From Parvibaculaceae bacterium Mf 1.05b.01 (lineage in GTDB: Bacteria > Pseudomonadota > Alphaproteobacteria > Parvibaculales > Parvibaculaceae), in assembly GCA_000509225.1 (NCBI GenBank), contig BAOK01000001.1:1240001-1304000 (forward strand): DNA of 64,000 nucleotides, written 5' to 3'. Positions 8,795 to 15,978 of the stretch are shown here, one piece after another. Within the stretch, counting starts at the first letter, position 1. The number at the start of each line of letters is the position of its first letter. The position numbers and the translations under genes were made by a program. Below the pieces are notes generated by a model. That model was not told the origin of the DNA and did no database searches. It worked only from the letters and a program-made list of their open reading frames with translations.

Positions 8795-9867
8795 GCCTGC
8801 ACCTCCTCAGTGATATCTGTCCAAAGCTCCGACGCGTCAGGCTCAGGACTTTCCTGCGCGAAATTGGCAGCCTCAGTAACAATGGCTCGAACGTCAGCGT
8901 CGATTTCCTTTAGAGCAGCTTCGTCTATCTTCTTTGATCTCAGCAGCCGGGCTTTCACCTGTTCGATTGGGTCATGCTCTTCGCGCATGCGGTTTACTTC
9001 TTCCCGCGCACGATATTTCGCCGGATCGGACATTGAGTGTCCCCGATAGCGATAGGTGTTCATCTCGAGAATGAAGGGACCATTGCCGGCTCGACAAGAC
9101 GCCGCGGCGCGAGCTGCCGCGTCTTTCACCGCGCGCACATCCATTCCATCTACCTGTTCGCCTGGAATGTTAAAGCTGACGCCGCGCTTGGAGAGGTCCG
9201 TCTGCGCGGACGCCCGGCTGATCGCCGTGCCCATCGCATATTGATTGTTCTCAATCACATAGACGACCGGAAGCTCCCAGAGCTCCGCCATGTTGAAGCT
9301 CTCATAAACCTGGCCCTGGTTTGCGGCGCCATCGCCAAAATAGACAAAGGACACATTGCCATTGTCTTGATATCGATTAGCGAAAGCGAGACCTGTGCCT
9401 AAAGACACCTGCGCACCAACAATGCCGTGACCGCCGTAAAAGTGTTTCTCGGCGGAGAACATGTGCATGGAGCCACCCTTGCCGCGAGACAGGCCGCCTT
9501 CACGGCCCGTCAGCTCTGCCATCACCCCTTTAGGGTCGAGGCCCATTGCCAGCATATGGCCATGATCCCGATATCCGGTGATCATCTGATCGCCTTCAAT
9601 CGACGCCATCTGCACGCCGACGACTACAGCTTCCTGACCAATATAGAGATGACAAAACCCACCGATGAGGCCCATGCCATACATCTGACCCGCTTTTTCT
9701 TCGAAGCGGCGGATGGTGAGCATCATCTTGTAAGATTCCAGATCTTCATCGCTGGTGAAGGCCGGAACTTCAGGCTGTTTTCGGGGAGCGTTCTTTCGAC
9801 TTGCTGACTTCTTCGCCGCCGTCTTTCTTGAAGAGGGCTTTTTGGGGGCTGCCTTCTTGGTCGCCAT
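8791..9867 (-). CDS. pdhA: Pyruvate dehydrogenase E1 alpha subunit
   Basis: Alpha subunit of pyruvate dehydrogenase, 358 aa from the chosen start. The thiamine diphosphate motif is visible as GDG (178-180), closing with ENNQYAMGT (Asn207-Asn208). The first 32 residues are very rich in Lys, Ala, Ser and Arg; an E1-alpha tail of this kind may contact E2. The open frame runs on to 9909, but the ATG at 9867 has GAGG about 11 nt upstream and gives the usual MATKK opening. First gene of the pdhA-pdhB-pdhC-lpdA operon. Two matched palindromes lie about 100-150 bp upstream. Confidence 0.96.
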
Positions 9868-9965
9868 ATATCCGGGCCTCGCGGTTGTCATGGACGGGAA
9901 ATGCGTCAACTCCGTAACAAACGATACGGCCTAAATATTTGATTTGTATGAAAAAATTTGTGATG

Positions 9966-10018
9966 AACTGAATTTCAGTTAAATCGACCGAAATGCAGGC
10001 ATTTTACTGAAAGTCAGT
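9966..10018. promoter_or_regulatory. Two matched palindromes upstream of the pdh operon, possible operators
   Basis: ACTGAATTTCAGT lies within the larger palindrome AACTGAATTTCAGTT at 9966-9980. ACTGAAAGTCAGT is at 10006-10018. The two 13-mers agree at 11 of 13 positions, differing only in the centre, and their centres are 39 bp apart. Both sit in the 170-bp gap between ftsB and pdhA, at about -100 and -140 from the pdhA ATG. Repetition of the same arm sequence suggests a dimeric regulator; the protein is unknown. Confidence 0.5.
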
Positions 10019-10037
10019 TTCGACGTGATCGCCAAAA

Positions 10038-10367
10038 TCACTTCGGATCACGATATATGGTCAATTCGTCCGGTCGGGACACACCCAAATAGGCCCGGGC
10101 GCGCTCATCAAGCAGGTCCGGATCCAGGCTTTCAGGACGCAGCAGAGCCACCTGATGCTCCAGACGGGCGCGGTCAGCGCTTACAACATCTAGGTTCTCG
10201 CGAAGTGTCTCAATCTCGACGGCCAAAGCAGACCAGGCACGAAGTCCCTGATCCCCCTTCACCGCGTTTACGACAAAGTAGGTCAATAACAGCCCACACA
10301 GGACCGGCAATACCAAGAGCCGAAGCCGAAGTGGTTCATGAGTTGAGACGAGACCAAAGCGTTCCAT
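10038..10367 (-). CDS. ftsB: FtsB/DivIC-family septum formation initiator
   Basis: Bitopic inner-membrane division protein, 109 aa. It has a short cytoplasmic N-terminus, one transmembrane segment (about residues 17-35, LLVLPVLCGLLLTYFVVNA), then a periplasmic coiled coil (about 47-85). The family motif is seen in the segment following LRPESLDPDLLDERAR. FtsB joins FtsL and FtsQ in the divisome complex that activates septal wall synthesis. Position near eno and upstream of pdhA matches other Alphaproteobacteria. The ribosome binding site is weak. The region directly upstream is packed with GANTC sites. Confidence 0.9.
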   Translation of the reverse strand: MERFGLVSTHEPLRLRLLVLPVLCGLLLTYFVVNAVKGDQGLRAWSALAVEIETLRENLDVVSADRARLEHQVALLRPESLDPDLLDERARAYLGVSRPDELTIYRDPK

Positions 10368-10376
10368 AGGATTAGA

Positions 10377-10466
10377 GAATCACAGAGTGATTCGTCTGGT
10401 CAAGCGGAAATGATTCGCGATTCTCTCAATGAGTCCAAATGGTTGGAAGTGTGTCTGCCGGGACTC
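10377..10466. promoter_or_regulatory. Cluster of six GANTC (CcrM-type) sites upstream of ftsB
   Basis: GANTC occurs at 10377-10381, 10389-10393, 10412-10416, 10419-10423, 10431-10435 and 10462-10466. The first two form a perfect palindrome, GAATCACAGAGTGATTC (10377-10393), that ends 10 bp from the ftsB ATG. Chance expectation is about one site per 256 bp. In Alphaproteobacteria CcrM methylates the A of GANTC, and methylation state with GcrA controls cell-cycle promoters, including division genes. Cell-cycle control of ftsB is an inference. Confidence 0.55.
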
Positions 10467-11112
10467 ACCCACCCGGGAAAGTCGGCTCTGGATCACCAGC
10501 GCTCCACTGAGGGTATTTTTTCATGACTGCTTTGAACCGGTCTGATGCCAGAAAGCGCTCCAACCAGCGCCTGAGATGAGGCCAGTCCTGCTCGTCAAAC
10601 CAGGCGCGGCCAGTGTTTGCGAACTGTCTTACAAAAGGCAGGATCGCGTAGTCGGCAAAGCTCGCTCGGGGACCACACAACCAATCATTCTCCGCCAGAC
10701 GCGCATCCAGATCTGACAGGATCTTCGACGCCTCAGCCCGATGCTCCTCGGCCACTGCACCGTCGTAGCGATTGGCATATTTGTAGCGATCCAAATGATG
10801 TTTAAAGGGGCCATCATTCTGGGCCACAAGCTTGTCTATCAACGCACGATCAGCATCCAGCCACCCTTCCGGGTCCGCCTCTGACAACGCCCAGTTCATC
10901 ACATCAAGACTTTCTTCGAGCACGCTGCCATCACCAAGCAAAAGAACGGGCACCGTCGCCTTGGGGGAAACCTCAATCATTTCTGGCGGTTTGTCCCTCA
11001 GGACCACTTCGCGCAGGGCAACCGATTGGCCACTAGCCGCCAAGGCTAGACGGGCCCGCATGGCGTAAGGGCAGCGCCTGAAAGAATATAATGTGGGTAG
11101 ATCCTGGGTCAT
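10465..11112 (-). CDS. Glutathione S-transferase family protein
   Basis: Cytosolic GST-fold protein, 215 aa. It has a thioredoxin-like N-terminal half (about residues 6-80, with CPYAM at Cys14 and ATVPVLLL supplying the cis-proline) and an all-helical C-terminal half. [11 protein letters not shown] resembles the Omega-class/glutaredoxin-like type with an active-site cysteine, so thiol transfer rather than classical conjugation is possible. It overlaps trhO by 4 bases (ATGA) and is its downstream partner. Substrate unknown. Confidence 0.85.
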
Positions 11113-12068
11113 TCGGTCAGTTGCACTGGTTTTTCATATTTGGCGCCCAAATGTTGTTCATTGCGCGCCTTGGCTAGATCAATCTGCTTCTGGCGGGAGG
11201 CAAACCTCGCCTTTTGTTCCGGGCTCAACGCATCGTAGCAGTGAGGGCAGCTCACGCCGCGCTGATATTCTGGTGCTTCCTTTTCTTCCTCTGAAATTGG
11301 GCGTCTACAGGCATGGCACATGTCATAGCTGCCGGGTTTCAGTCCATGCTCAACGGACACGCGCTGATCAAAGACAAAACACTCGCCCTCCCAGAGGCTT
11401 TCTTCTTGGGGCACGTTTTCCAGATATTTCAGAATGCCGCCTTCCAGATGATAAACGTCGTCAAAACCTTCAGCCTTCATATAGGAGCTCGCTTTTTCGC
11501 AGCGAATGCCCCCCGTGCAGAACATGGCAACCTTTGGTTTTCCGCCTTCGCTCGCCCGCTTTTTTAGGGCTTCTACCCAGTCTGGGAATTCCCTGAAGCT
11601 TGCTGTCTTCGGATCCTCAGCGCCCTGAAATGTGCCAATCGCCACTTCGTACTCGTTGCGGGTGTCGACCAGAATGACGTCTGGATCTGATATGAGATCG
11701 TTCCAGTCCTCCGGCTTCACATAGGTGCCGACCTGCTTGTTTGGATCCGCAATCGGCTTACCCAGCGTCACAATTTCCCGTTTCAGACGCACTTTCATAC
11801 GGTGGAAAGGCATCTCGTCGGCGTAGGAGTATTTAAGGCTCATCCCGTCAAAACGGGCATCAGATTGAATGTAGGAAATTGCCGCCCGCACGCCCTGTTC
11901 AGGCCCCGCAATGGTTCCGTTCAACCCTTCCTTCGCAAGCAGGATTGTGCCCATCACGCCATTGTCCCGGCAAATGGACTGCAGGGGCGCCTGAAGGGCT
12001 TCAAAATCAGGCAGCGAAGCAAACTTGTACATCGCCGCTACTGTGTATGTTTGTCGGGTACTCATCAT
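11109..12068 (-). CDS. trhO: tRNA uridine(34) hydroxylase, rhodanese-like
   Basis: TrhO (YceA family) hydroxylates U34 in the anticodon of certain tRNAs using oxygen, on the way to 5-methoxyuridine-type modifications. At 319 aa it has family length. An N-terminal acylphosphatase-like domain (about 5-100) precedes the rhodanese domain (about 120-220) with active-site loop CTGGIRC (Cys184, Cys190). The C-terminal region carries CHACRRPI and CPHC pairs. It is divergent from the first PAS-like gene and overlaps the GST by ATGA. Confidence 0.92.
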
Positions 12069-12262
12069 TCTTGTCCTGCTGAGTTTCCAGATTGGTTACC
12101 TCTCCCAACGCATTTCTGCAAGCTGACGCCAAAAATCAAGAGCAGAAATGGGGTTTTCTGGGGTTCTGCACCCAAGACCAACGGTACTTCATGTTTTGTA
12201 AAAGGGATAATGCCACCCTGTTCATAAGCTTTTGGTCTGAAACCAAAGTTTAGGGTGTGGGC

Positions 12263-12853
12263 ATGACGTTTGATGAAGTAGTTGCGCAGTCGCTGGCGCC
12301 AGAGACGTTGCAAAGCGTCTTCAATGCCTATCAGCAGGCACAGAACGGCGGTGATGTTGCCGCTCAAGATCAGCTGCCCATGAGGACAATGGCTCCTCTT
12401 CTTCCCAACGTCACGCTCATGGAACATGTAGACGATGACACCATCATCTACCGTATTGCCGGAGAAGCGATCGTTGCGCGCCTTGGTTTCAACCCCACCG
12501 GCCAGAACTTTCTTGACCTGATCGCGCCCTCCGTGCGCGCAGAAACAGCACTCACCAACAAAACCGGGTTGGATGAGCGGTGTGGACATTATGCTGTTTA
12601 TGAAAATCAATATGAGTCTGGCCGTCGCATGATCAGCGAAAGCCTCATGCTTCCAATGCGCAAAACTGCCGGTGGCAGGGTCGCTTTCATTTTCGGCTAC
12701 CACGTACACCACAAAGCCACCGACATAGGTGTCTTGGGCGCCCGAACCGCTCTCGGTGTCCGATGGATCATCGCAGATTTTGTCGATATCGGATTTGGTG
12801 TTCCACAAGCCCTCTCTGGCGCAGAACAGTCTCAAGGACGGAGGGGAGCCTGA
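12263..12853 (+). CDS. PAS-domain protein (PAS_5-like), first of a tandem pair
   Basis: 196-aa soluble protein resembling the alphaproteobacterial PAS_5-type family, single-domain proteins of unknown role. No output domain is visible. Recognisable blocks are LPMRTMAPLLPNVTLMEHV, IYRIAGEAIVARLGF, ESGRRMISESLMLPM and FVDIGFG. It is clearly paralogous to the next gene over its whole length. The ATG at 12263 was chosen over the in-frame GTG at 12257 because it gives the same MTFDE opening as the paralogue; AGGG lies upstream. A long open frame on the opposite strand covers this gene but lacks family features. Confidence 0.75.
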   Translation: MTFDEVVAQSLAPETLQSVFNAYQQAQNGGDVAAQDQLPMRTMAPLLPNVTLMEHVDDDTIIYRIAGEAIVARLGFNPTGQNFLDLIAPSVRAETALTNKTGLDERCGHYAVYENQYESGRRMISESLMLPMRKTAGGRVAFIFGYHVHHKATDIGVLGARTALGVRWIIADFVDIGFGVPQALSGAEQSQGRRGA

Positions 12854-12935
12854 CCATTTGGTTTGAAGATTTGACGATGTACAGGAATGATCTCCAACCG
12901 CCTGGTGAAAAAAGCACCGGTCAAGGGTCCATGCC

Positions 12936-13529
12936 ATGACCTTCGATGAGCTCATCTCCTTGTCTTCAGCTCCCGACAAGGTTGGCGCATTTGTCTCTGC
13001 CTATCGCGTGTCGCAAACGGATTGCGCCGTCGGCCGCCGAGATCTTCTGCCCATGCGAGCCCTCGCACCTATGCTCGCAAACATCACAATGACGGAGTAT
13101 GTCGACAACGACATCATAATTTTCCGGATTGCAGGTGAGAACATTACGGACCGTCTGGGATTTAATCCCGCTGGTCGCAACACATTGGACCTCATCGCAC
13201 AAGAAAAACGAGATGAAGCCATTGCTCTGCACAACATTATCCTCAACCAGCCATGCGGGTCCTACGTCGTATATGAGAGTGTGTTTCAATCCGGTCGTCG
13301 GGCAAAAAGCGAAAGCATCACCTTTCCCCTCTACAAAGATGCATCTAAGGAGACCGTTTTCTTCTTTTCTTACCATCTGCACCACGAAGTAACCGGCGTC
13401 ACCGAAATCGGAGAGGCCACAGCGCTTGGCCTGTCGGAGATTTTGACAGAGCTTGTCGATATTGGGTTTGGGTCTCCGGATATGCCAAACCCTCAGGACC
13501 TTCTGCGCGTTGACCTAGGCGCCGAATAG
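12936..13529 (+). CDS. PAS-domain protein (PAS_5-like), second of a tandem pair
   Basis: 197-aa paralogue of the preceding gene. It shares the opening MTFDE and the blocks LPMRALAPMLANITMTEYV, FRIAGENITDRLGFNP, SGRRAKSESITFP and LVDIGFGSP. The two have diverged well beyond a recent duplication; I estimate about 45% identity by eye. The 82-bp gap after the first gene allows either co-transcription or a separate promoter. No membrane segment, kinase, GGDEF or other output domain is present, so it may be a small sensor or adaptor. Confidence 0.75.
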   Translation: MTFDELISLSSAPDKVGAFVSAYRVSQTDCAVGRRDLLPMRALAPMLANITMTEYVDNDIIIFRIAGENITDRLGFNPAGRNTLDLIAQEKRDEAIALHNIILNQPCGSYVVYESVFQSGRRAKSESITFPLYKDASKETVFFFSYHLHHEVTGVTEIGEATALGLSEILTELVDIGFGSPDMPNPQDLLRVDLGAE

Positions 13530-13564
13530 CTCACCCCCGCTGGGTCAACACTCACAAGCAAAAA

Positions 13565-13993
13565 TCAATCCAGCGCCGGCTTGCCGCGGAGTTTCTTTTT
13601 GTCACCAAGCTTCGTTTTGGAATTGAGGCGCTTGCGCTTAGATGCCTGTGTTGGTTTGGTTTTTACCCGGTACTTCTCCGGTTTTGATGCCTGTCGCAAA
13701 AGATCAAACAGCCGCGCGCGCGCTGCTTCTCTATTCAACTGCTGCGACCGGTGTTCCCTTGCCGTGATGGTCAGCTTTCCATTGGCAGATAACCGTCGAC
13801 CCGCATGAATTGCCAATCGTCGCTTCGTCGTCGGTGTCAGGGATTTCGTTCTCGCGACATCAAAGCGAAGCTGCACCGCCGTGGCGAGTTTGTTGACGTT
13901 CTGGCCACCAGGCCCACCCGCCTGGATGAATGTTTCTTCCAGTTCAGACTCGTCTATCTCAATCCTGTCATTGATGCGTATCTTGGCCATCAC
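13565..13993 (-). CDS. arfB: Alternative ribosome-rescue factor ArfB (peptidyl-tRNA hydrolase)
   Basis: Release-factor-like protein (142 aa) that frees stalled ribosomes lacking a stop codon. The catalytic GGQ motif (29-31) lies in AGGPGGQNVNK. The C-terminal tail is rich in Lys and Arg (from about residue 112: KTKPTQASKRKRLNSKTK), the part that enters the empty mRNA channel. It begins MMAK, so either ATG could serve. It lies 6 bp after the stop of the upstream flavoprotein gene and is probably co-transcribed with it. Confidence 0.94.
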   Translation of the reverse strand: MMAKIRINDRIEIDESELEETFIQAGGPGGQNVNKLATAVQLRFDVARTKSLTPTTKRRLAIHAGRRLSANGKLTITAREHRSQQLNREAARARLFDLLRQASKPEKYRVKTKPTQASKRKRLNSKTKLGDKKKLRGKPALD

Positions 13994-13999
13994 ACACCT

Positions 14000-15208
14000 T
14001 TATCGGGATTTCAAATAGCTGGCCGCTGCGACTCCAGCTGAACGACCTAGTGCCATGCAGGCATTCAGCAAATAGCCACCGGTTGGCGCTTCCCAGTTCA
14101 GCATCTCACCCGTACAGAATGTTCCTGGTTTGGATGTCAGCATAAAGCCCTCATCCAGCGCCTCGAAAGCGATGCCACCAGATGAGGAAATCGCCTCCTC
14201 TATCGGTCGGGCGCTGGTCAGCTTGATGGGCAAGCTTTTGATCGCCCCTGCAAGGCTCTCCACGTCATCCAGCCTGTCGGGCGCGCATTCTCGGATTAGA
14301 TTGGCTTTGACACCTGATAGGAAGACCGTTTTCTTCAGATGGGTGGAAAAGCTCTTCGATCCTCGCGGCCTGGACAGCCGCGTGATAACTTTATCAAGCG
14401 ACACGTCCGGCATCAGATCAAGACGAAGGATGGCTTCGCCTTTTTCTTCGATCGCTTCACGCAGCGCGCGCGCATGTTGATAGACTCCACTGCCCTCAAG
14501 GCCGTATTCGGTAACAACACATTCGCCATTTAGACGCACATCGTCGGTGGTGAGCGCGACTGCCTTTACAGGCTCACCAGCGAAACGTTCCTTAAAGTGA
14601 TCTGACCAAGCGACGTTAAAGCCACAATTCGCGGGTTCGAATGGCTGAACGTCAATGCCAGCCTGCTTCACGAAAGGAACCCAGCTCGCATCAGACCCAA
14701 GCTGGGGCCAGCTTGCCCCACCGAGCGCCAAAATGGTTGCATCCGCCTTGATGGTCTTTTGACCTTCTGGCGATTCAAATATCAAGGCATCGGCGTCGTC
14801 CCAGCCACGCCATTTGTGCCGGACATGGACGCTCATTCCGCGTGTTTTCAGCTCACGAATCCACGCGCGCAACAGCGGCGCCGCTTTCATGCTTTTCGGG
14901 AAGACATGACCCGACGTCCCAACAAAAGTTTTGGTCCCCAGCTCTGCGGCCCATTCGCGAACGGCTTTCGGCGGGAAATGTTCAATAGCATTTTCGAGAC
15001 CTGGCCGCGCATCTCCAAAATGTGAGAGCAACTTATCAACGGGCTCGGCATGGGTGAGGTTGAGACCACTCTTCCCAGCCATCAAAAACTTGCGCCCAAG
15101 CGAGGGCATCGAGTCATACAGATCCACAGCAATGCCGCGGCGCGTTAGAGCTTCGGCAGCCATCAAACCGGCTGGCCCACCCCCAATGATGGCGACTGTT
15201 ACTGACAC
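14000..15208 (-). CDS. BaiN/HI0933-family NAD(P)/FAD-dependent oxidoreductase
   Basis: Flavoprotein of 402 aa. The N-terminal FAD motif is GGGPAG (9-14), followed by the family hallmark GRKFLMAGKSGLNLTH. The C-terminal motif CTGEMLNWEAPTGGYLLNAC and the small-residue end are typical of the group. The biochemical role is uncertain: BaiN reduces bile-acid intermediates, but most members have no assigned substrate. Its start overlaps the end of the methyltransferase gene by 10 bases, so the two are coupled. Confidence 0.88.
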   Translation of the reverse strand: MSVTVAIIGGGPAGLMAAEALTRRGIAVDLYDSMPSLGRKFLMAGKSGLNLTHAEPVDKLLSHFGDARPGLENAIEHFPPKAVREWAAELGTKTFVGTSGHVFPKSMKAAPLLRAWIRELKTRGMSVHVRHKWRGWDDADALIFESPEGQKTIKADATILALGGASWPQLGSDASWVPFVKQAGIDVQPFEPANCGFNVAWSDHFKERFAGEPVKAVALTTDDVRLNGECVVTEYGLEGSGVYQHARALREAIEEKGEAILRLDLMPDVSLDKVITRLSRPRGSKSFSTHLKKTVFLSGVKANLIRECAPDRLDDVESLAGAIKSLPIKLTSARPIEEAISSSGGIAFEALDEGFMLTSKPGTFCTGEMLNWEAPTGGYLLNACMALGRSAGVAAASYLKSR

Positions 15209-15975
15209 AGAAAAAGCCCCGCTTGCTTGCTGATGGTAAATGCCCCGTCGCGATCAATCACTGCCTGCACTTTTGGCCGGATTCTGTCGCACGCCGCAAG
15301 CACGCTACCAGGCTCCGGAAAAAGGGATGCGGTAGATTTAACGTATTCAATGACGGCGTCAGCGTTTGGCAAGACCAATTGTCCGGCGAGTACTTCGAGC
15401 TCAACCTTGCTGAAATACCTGCCCAATTGTTCGGCGCCATTTTCAAGTGTGAACTCGTCGGTGAAGTTCGAATACCACTCTAAACCTTCCTCTGTGAGGA
15501 GCGCTTGCAATTGCTGCATGTATGACCCGCTGTTCGACGTCGCGCAGAAATAGCCGCCGGGTTTGAGCAAGCTCCGGGACACAGCCAATGCTTTGGGCCT
15601 GTCCGTTACGTGGTACAGCATGTGCTTTGCGAGGATGAGATCGAAGCCTTCTTCGTCTGCCCGAAGGTCTTCGGCTGATACAACCTCGCAGGTGGCAGAC
15701 AGACCTGTATCAGCGAGGCGCGTTTCTGCCGCCTCCACCATTCCGCCTGAATTGTCAGTCAGAACCAGTTTGAGGTCTTTGGGAAGTCGTCCTGCATTCC
15801 TGGCCCAGAACTCCCCATTGCCACAGCCGATCTCAAGCAAACGCTGCCCAGCAGACAGCGGCAGTCTGTCCAAAACCCAATGTGAAAAATCCACATACGG
15901 CGCGGTGTAACTTTCATGAAACGCGATGCGCGTCGCGAGATTATTGTCTCGCTGGTACTGCGCATCGCTGCTCAT
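15199..15975 (-). CDS. Class I SAM-dependent methyltransferase
   Basis: 258-aa soluble methyltransferase. SAM motif I is LLEIGCGNGEF (about 47-57), the acidic post-I residue is in LVLTDNSGGM, and motif LILAKHMLYHV follows. The substrate cannot be inferred. It ends inside the start of the flavoprotein gene and begins 3 bp after the eno stop, so eno, this gene, the flavoprotein and arfB form one co-directional block. Confidence 0.85.
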   Translation of the reverse strand: MSSDAQYQRDNNLATRIAFHESYTAPYVDFSHWVLDRLPLSAGQRLLEIGCGNGEFWARNAGRLPKDLKLVLTDNSGGMVEAAETRLADTGLSATCEVVSAEDLRADEEGFDLILAKHMLYHVTDRPKALAVSRSLLKPGGYFCATSNSGSYMQQLQALLTEEGLEWYSNFTDEFTLENGAEQLGRYFSKVELEVLAGQLVLPNADAVIEYVKSTASLFPEPGSVLAACDRIRPKVQAVIDRDGAFTISKQAGLFLCQ

Positions 15976-15978
15976 GAA

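Follow-up and report, generated by a model that had tools for sequence, protein, structure and literature searches.

Why is a cell division gene of this alphaproteobacterium preceded by a dense cluster of GANTC sites, and does the cluster place the gene under the influence of DNA methylation by CcrM? A sequence-only reading had counted six GANTC sites in 90 bp before ftsB in the 64,000-nucleotide stretch of DNA analysed here (the window), and had proposed that ftsB may be under cell-cycle control, given that GANTC methylation and GcrA tie promoters to replication passage in Alphaproteobacteria. All six were located at 10377-10466, with starts at 10377, 10389, 10412, 10419, 10431 and 10462, and the cluster proved stronger than claimed. 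The gene behind it does encode a divisome protein of the FtsB/DivIC family by its Pfam match. On the minus strand the order is a glutathione S-transferase (GST)-like gene, 97 bp, the ftsB/divIC gene and then pdhA. The features are as follows.

10038..10367, minus strand: ftsB/divIC-family gene, an ORF of 109 aa with its ATG at 10367 (Pfam DivIC 3.6e-12, residues 27-106)
10374..10379, minus strand: proposed -10 hexamer, TTCTCT, a weak one whose second base is not A, suggested by conservation
10377..10381, minus strand: GANTC site 1, GATTC on the gene strand, bases -14 to -10 (38/38 family genomes; 78/79 CcrM-positive skeleton promoters, see below)
10389..10393, minus strand: GANTC site 2, GAATC on the gene strand, in the -35/-10 spacer (36/38 family genomes)
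10398..10403, minus strand: -35 element TTGACC, with conserved spacing to GATTC over the class
10412..10416, minus strand: GANTC site 3, GAATC on the gene strand, upstream of the -35 (7/7 genus genomes, by eye)
10419..10423, minus strand: GANTC site 4, GAATC on the gene strand, upstream of the -35 (6/7 genus genomes, missing in G006, by eye)
10431..10435, minus strand: GANTC site 5, GACTC on the gene strand, upstream of the -35 (7/7 genus genomes, by eye)
10462..10466, minus strand: GANTC site 6, GAGTC on the gene strand, overlapping the GST stop codon (same offset in 5/7 genus genomes, by eye)
10465..11112, minus strand: glutathione S-transferase-like gene, 215 aa, upstream of ftsB (Pfam GST_N_3 2.1e-16, GST_C_2 2.4e-13)

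The cluster stands in DNA that is otherwise poor in GANTC. The window holds 102 sites, whereas 100 shuffles that preserve dinucleotides averaged 312.7 and never had fewer than 102. In a genome sample of 864 kb (the window and 40 further 20-kb stretches, together about 23% of the 3.82 Mb) we counted 1,207 sites, or 1.40 per kb, which gives an expectation of about 0.13 per 90 bp. The chance value of fewer than 0.4 given by the sequence-only reading is fair by base composition but too generous for a GANTC-poor genome. When GANTC density was ranked over the 864 kb the ftsB cluster was the densest, with no more than four sites in any other 90-bp stretch, and 2,000 uniform placements of the sites over this sample reached a highest count of five per 90 bp and never six. 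Apart from it the sample has eight clusters of three or four sites: six are within ORFs, one directly follows an ORF (L019) and one is located 64 bp before an ORF (L008). This last cluster (L008:11991-12059) has three GANTC in 69 bp, and the ORF behind it seems to include the start of ribosomal protein S4.

A 17-bp palindrome containing two of the sites is present at 10377-10393 as described earlier, but nine bases, not 10, separate it from the ftsB ATG. The arrangement GANTC-N7-GANTC occurs twice in 864 kb, both times within this cluster. While the palindrome and the two GANTC-N7-GANTC pairs might be taken for the operator of an ordinary regulator (LexA, CtrA or another dimer), we consider that most improbable because the palindrome is not kept: in 38 genomes of the family its GANTC ends are conserved and its inner left bases vary, and over the class the spacing of the two sites is mostly 11 or 12. 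The LexA operator is given as GTTC-N7-GTTC (PMC7987155) and the CtrA half-site as TTAA (PMC4287350). By reading, 10368-10466 contains no GTTC or GAAC that would fit a LexA operator and no TTAA that would fit a CtrA box (TTAA-N7-TTAA).

The sequence-only reading depended on the sites being conserved in relatives, and for the two gene-proximal sites they are. We detected ftsB in 38 of 40 family genomes; the promoter with the GATTC nearest the ATG is present in all 38, and the spacer site accompanies it in 36. At least four GANTC sites per 130 bp were found in 15 of the 38, and in two genomes TTGC replaces TTGA. The seven genus genomes with ftsB have five or six sites at unchanged offsets; the sixth lies elsewhere in G002 and is absent from G001. 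Among 67 named loci, mostly from Rhizobiales, only four have the two-site promoter by eye (L031, L032, L034 from Tepidicaulis marinus, and L037). All four are from Parvibaculaceae or unclassified kin, and L032 is apparently the same assembly as G001.

In the direction of the gene, the sequence next to the start codon is TTGACC-N4-GAATC-N7-GATTC-N2-T-N6-ATG, and site 1 together with the T at 10382 supplies the TG of an extended -10. A TTGA[CT] and GATTC pair was identified in 90 class promoters, and in 88 of them TTGA[CT] begins 21 or 22 bases ahead of GATTC. Weighted by family, class promoters have T before GATTC in 99%, G at -16 in 80% and T three bases behind GATTC in 97%, and the T at the position equivalent to 10374 is present in 95-97% of aligned CcrM-positive promoters. 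The gap from this T to the ATG is six nucleotides in 54 of 79 skeleton promoters and seven in 12. From this spacing we infer that the T at 10374 is base -7, which would place GATTC at -14 to -10, give a spacer of 17 or 18 and make the A of the ATG (10367) the +1. The ftsB mRNA is thus probably leaderless, starting at or a few bases from the ATG.

A scan for consensus sigma-70 promoters did not report the proposed ftsB promoter, because its hexamer TTCNNT is a poor one; the sole report was a plus-strand site at 10343-10372 (9 of 12 matches, 0.5 expected). A search for the same promoter in the 864-kb sample, with loose spacing of TTGA, TG and ATG, returned only two other matches, neither with a spacer site. 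An Rfam search of 9000-12500 returned no family at the gathering score. Scored by eye on one strand, sites 1-4 fit the extended GANTC motif YGAKTCK (PMC7987155) and sites 5 and 6 do not.

We then surveyed 290 Alphaproteobacteria genomes, in which FtsB was found in 266, GcrA in 202 and CcrM, as defined by its RAMA domain, in 220. The ftsB upstream region was compared in 142 genomes with the better FtsB scores of the 266 matched (the window's genome, 25 loci, 36 regions over many families and 80 further listed matches), a sample that is not random and in which script-chosen start codons are surely wrong in some cases; four further regions of the window's family were counted in the family set only. 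GATTC was present in the last 45 bp before ftsB in 98 of 118 CcrM-positive and 2 of 24 CcrM-negative genomes (Fisher 2.8e-12), and by family majority in 50 of 63 and 2 of 16 (1.3e-6); these tests ignore kinship, which the family-level counts soften only in part. The core of TTGA, GANTC and GATTC was found in 63 of 118 CcrM-positive genomes and none of the 24 others. The remaining 20 of the 118 CcrM-positive genomes lack GATTC in this region. A second set of 29 genomes with divergent FtsB was hand-picked from families outside the first listing to test the weak end. Here GATTC was found in 7 of 20 CcrM-positive and 0 of 9 CcrM-negative genomes (p 0.066), one of the seven (L381) having it outside any promoter-like place; 13 of the 20 lacked it, and the full skeleton was seen in 5 of 20 as compared to 0 of 9. 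With both sets pooled, GATTC precedes ftsB in 105 of 138 CcrM-positive and 2 of 33 CcrM-negative genomes. The ftsB GANTC promoter is common, far from universal, and rarer with divergent FtsB.

GANTC as a whole, and not only GATTC, is enriched. Before ftsB in CcrM-positive genomes it is the top palindromic pentamer (369 occurrences versus 119 for the next) and exceeds its resampled mean of 79 (maximum 104), while CcrM-negative genomes have 16 versus 10.4. In 24 loci GANTC is restricted to the 120 bp ahead of ftsB and, more faintly, the beginning of the gene: its density is 1.54 per locus in the last 30 bp before the ATG and 0.29 in the opening 30 bp of the coding sequence; outside -120..+30, every other 30-bp bin from -1500 to +1500 has at most 0.21. 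Two loci (L251 and L182) carry up to ten and nine GANTC per 130 bp before ftsB, and many of these are arranged as GATTC repeats in tandem. Comparison across genomes gives good support to assigning the sites to an ftsB promoter linked with CcrM.

Does the promoter keep GATTC as a methylation site or as a sequence motif? The skeleton TTGA[CT]...TG...C..T before ftsB survives in six CcrM-negative genomes, and its definition fixes the G, the C and two T's so that only the middle three letters of GATTC are free to vary. GATTC is nearly invariant at the -10 site in CcrM-positive skeleton promoters (78/79), and TG-N-T-Y-C-N2-T persists in CcrM-negative ones. On these grounds it could be argued that GATTC is merely the -10 region of a conserved promoter, with an accidental match to GANTC and with the other sites as noise. 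We regard this as very unlikely. Among the CcrM-negative skeleton promoters only one of six reads GATTC (p 1.1e-6 against the 78 of 79), and exactly the GANTC letters were lost from the other five in four different ways (GGTTC twice, GATCC, GCTTC and GGTCC). Four of the five belong to one family (f23) within which the letters differ, and there were fewer independent losses than genomes showing them. The exception, G077, has family mates with CcrM (G169 and G238), and its own CcrM may be missing through an assembly gap; the other CcrM-negative genome with GATTC (G175) has the site outside the skeleton. One CcrM-positive genome (G264) reads TATTC in place of GATTC and retains its spacer site.

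The other sites also argue against an accidental match. A spacer GANTC is present in 57 of the 78 CcrM-positive GATTC promoters (33 of 42 families), where about 3% would be expected by chance. Its distance hardly varies, being mostly 11 or 12 bases (28 and 24 of the 57). Its third base is free (A 35, C 16, G 4, T 2). Further upstream sites, with mixed third bases too, occur in 50 of the 78, and CcrM-negative genomes show no upstream GANTC excess. The third base is the letter that CcrM ignores, which argues for a methylation site rather than a plain sequence motif.

Because CcrM status was defined by the RAMA domain, the 24 CcrM-negative genomes were rechecked with the CcrM of the window's genome, which gave matches in nine. 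G120 has a strong match to the catalytic part of CcrM (3.4e-60) in which no RAMA was found, and G061, a member of f23, has two CcrM-like pieces in one 361-aa frame; its spacer retains GACTC, and two additional sites lie farther upstream. A GANTC enzyme could therefore be present in one or two of the 24.

The genome of the window carries full-length ORFs for both proteins that the sequence-only reading called upon. CcrM is encoded by a 366-aa ORF of CcrM layout (RAMA domain 4.8e-20) and GcrA by a 168-aa ORF (PF07750, 5.6e-56). A second GcrA-like match in the genus mate G006 (5.9e-27) is perhaps a GcrB-like paralogue. In a control search, the Pfam GcrA model also scored above its cut-off in Sulfolobus acidocaldarius.

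Judging by the layout of the promoter and its distribution over genomes, we think it likely that ftsB has a leaderless sigma70-type promoter built of CcrM sites whose opening is set by methylation, with GcrA-sigma70 as the likeliest reader here. CcrM would methylate the GANTC sites, passage of the replication fork would leave them hemimethylated, and CcrM would then restore full methylation, with the rate of promoter opening depending on the methylation state. In the window's genome the state would most likely be read by GcrA bound to sigma70 RNA polymerase; in GcrA-less lineages another reader, or a direct effect on RNA polymerase, would be needed. What we observed are the sites, the promoter skeleton, its conservation and the link with CcrM; sigma70 use, the leaderless start, methylation in vivo, the direction of the effect, GcrA as reader, and timing are inferred. 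GcrA is reported to speed open-complex formation at promoters that are methylated (PMC7403470). Either full or half methylation may be the active state: ftsZ is reported to be most active when fully methylated (PMC3708114), and ctrA P1 was at one time believed to need hemimethylation (PMC3667746).

The class survey bears on the reader in a way we did not expect, since conservation of the ftsB promoter tracks CcrM and not GcrA. At E 0.001, 182 of the 290 genomes have both proteins, 38 CcrM only, 20 GcrA only and 50 neither, in contrast to the statement that gcrA and ccrM occur or are absent together (PMC3885167). GATTC lies in the last 45 bp before ftsB in 70 of 87 genomes with both, 28 of 31 with CcrM but without detectable GcrA, 1 of 9 with GcrA alone and 1 of 15 with neither. 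The 31 also keep the whole core in 18 cases, and have more GANTC sites than genomes with both proteins, by the mean per 130 bp (4.16 vs 2.76) and by family means upstream of the -35 (2.89 vs 1.40, Mann-Whitney p 0.019). The promoter is thus not conserved only in company with GcrA, and its persistence in these genomes weakens a simple "GcrA target" reading. The original proposal is partly supported: the class-wide link with CcrM gives good support to a methylation-linked promoter, GcrA is a candidate for its reader, and ftsB may be cell-cycle controlled.

We rechecked GcrA in 31 of the 38 CcrM-only genomes. A lenient Pfam search of 46 genomes including the 31 gave weak matches in 16 genomes, none over the cut-off; within the 31, the strongest match reached 0.001 and was interrupted by two stops. 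A profile built from 16 GcrAs (15 of them short) scored at best 0.045 in the 31 genomes and matched five of five positive controls at 6e-8 or better, two of which are genus mates of a negative. A reader other than GcrA is accordingly possible in our judgement, though we would not favour it: methylation may act straight on promoter opening or through another methyl reader, with GcrA as an add-on in some lineages. The methyl-adenines at -13 (non-template) and opposite -11 (template) would sit where melting starts, the genomes with CcrM and without detectable GcrA hold the promoter in its strongest form, and GATTC is rare in those with GcrA alone. Some of the 31 could, however, have a GcrA that is too divergent to detect or that their draft assembly lacks. 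The reported co-occurrence of gcrA and ccrM also speaks against this reading, as does the report in the same source that PftsN responds to methylation only in the presence of GcrA (PMC3885167). More tentatively still, CcrM control of ftsB may be an old class-wide link between replication and division without need for GcrA, in which adenine methylation in the extended -10 and spacer would be read by RNA polymerase itself or another reader, and loss of CcrM would free the promoter to drift from GANTC.

The position of ftsB on the chromosome affects when its methylation state would change. In C2 of the window's genome GC skew turns from plus to minus at 1.145-1.185 Mb and ftsB lies at 1.250 Mb. 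In two complete genus genomes the turn is at 1.02-1.10 Mb and 1.42-1.60 Mb, with ftsB at 0.944 Mb and 1.496 Mb. If the leading strand is G-rich the turn marks the replication terminus, which would then lie within about 160 kb of ftsB in all three genus genomes looked at. So near the terminus, the methylation state of the promoter would change late and briefly, close to the end of replication when the septal synthase must be switched on. In Caulobacter, terminus-near sites are reported to be hemimethylated in fewer than 10% of cells (PMC3973325).

The same position, and the presence of up to ten sites per 130 bp in some lineages (L251), would suit an explanation in which the dense sites serve DNA bookkeeping, as a CcrM loading place or a mark of the end of replication, and affect ftsB only by chance of place. 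We find this hard to credit, since the sites are tied to a fixed promoter spacing and precede ftsB even where the upstream gene differs. By eye, the ORF preceding ftsB ends like enolase in many family genomes; in the window about 5.6 kb (10465-15978) with GST and other genes separates enolase from ftsB.

The preferred reading, a promoter built of CcrM sites and opened according to their methylation, most resembles the GcrA/CcrM sigma70 promoters of Caulobacter (ftsZ, mipZ, ftsN, ctrA P1, podJ P2). In both cases GANTC lies between the -35 and -10, the gene behind the promoter acts in division or the cell cycle, the genome encodes CcrM and GcrA, the -35 is TTGAC, and there is a TGATTC-type site within YGAKTCK (PMC7987155). 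Caulobacter promoters with GANTC between the -10 and -35 fire at 40-60 min (PMC4287350), and ftsZ, mipZ and ftsN need GANTC there (PMC3708114, PMC3885167). Unlike those promoters, the one described here has ftsB as its target, two sites built into the spacer and extended -10, more sites upstream and apparently no leader, and it is kept over many families even without detectable GcrA. A motif search for ftsZ, mipZ and ftsN promoters of the window's genome found none in the 864-kb sample.

Under-methylated GANTC sites protected by other proteins (PMC3973325, PMC5172544) are similar in that a promoter GANTC is a place where binding and CcrM compete; they differ in that we saw no sign of such a protein at ftsB. 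Under anoxia, Sphingopyxis granuli shows a joint fall of ccrM, ftsB, ftsN and ftsW that other fts genes do not share, a correlation only (PMC6472365). A screen in Caulobacter for conserved GANTC before division genes names ftsZ, mipZ and ftsE (PMC3708114), and the word ftsB is absent from the main texts of PMC7987155, PMC3973325, PMC4287350 and PMC3885167. Our search of the literature on CcrM, GcrA and GANTC with ftsB or Parvibaculum found no report of the ftsB promoter; locus-tag tables, supplements and subscription papers, including the main GcrA papers, were outside its scope, and a GcrA peak at ftsB may already be on record.

Enterobacterial promoters with an internal GATC that are controlled by Dam, such as the IS10 transposase promoter and dnaA, offer a parallel from outside the class. 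There, as proposed here, a methylation site inside the promoter would couple firing to passage of the replication fork, although the enzyme (Dam, GATC) and the genes are others and the systems are not homologous.

These data suggest that DNA methylation ties ftsB to chromosome replication. The division genes known as CcrM targets (ftsZ, mipZ, ftsN) are those of Caulobacter and its near relatives, and a comparative study concluded that conservation of division-gene control stops at the Caulobacterales (PMC7987155). The loss of GANTC in CcrM-negative genomes amounts to a natural mutation experiment, and ftsB offers one short promoter at which to ask if the effect of methyl-adenine depends on GcrA. 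The role of CcrM outside Caulobacter would find a general answer in a division-gene promoter whose CcrM sites persist across dozens of families.
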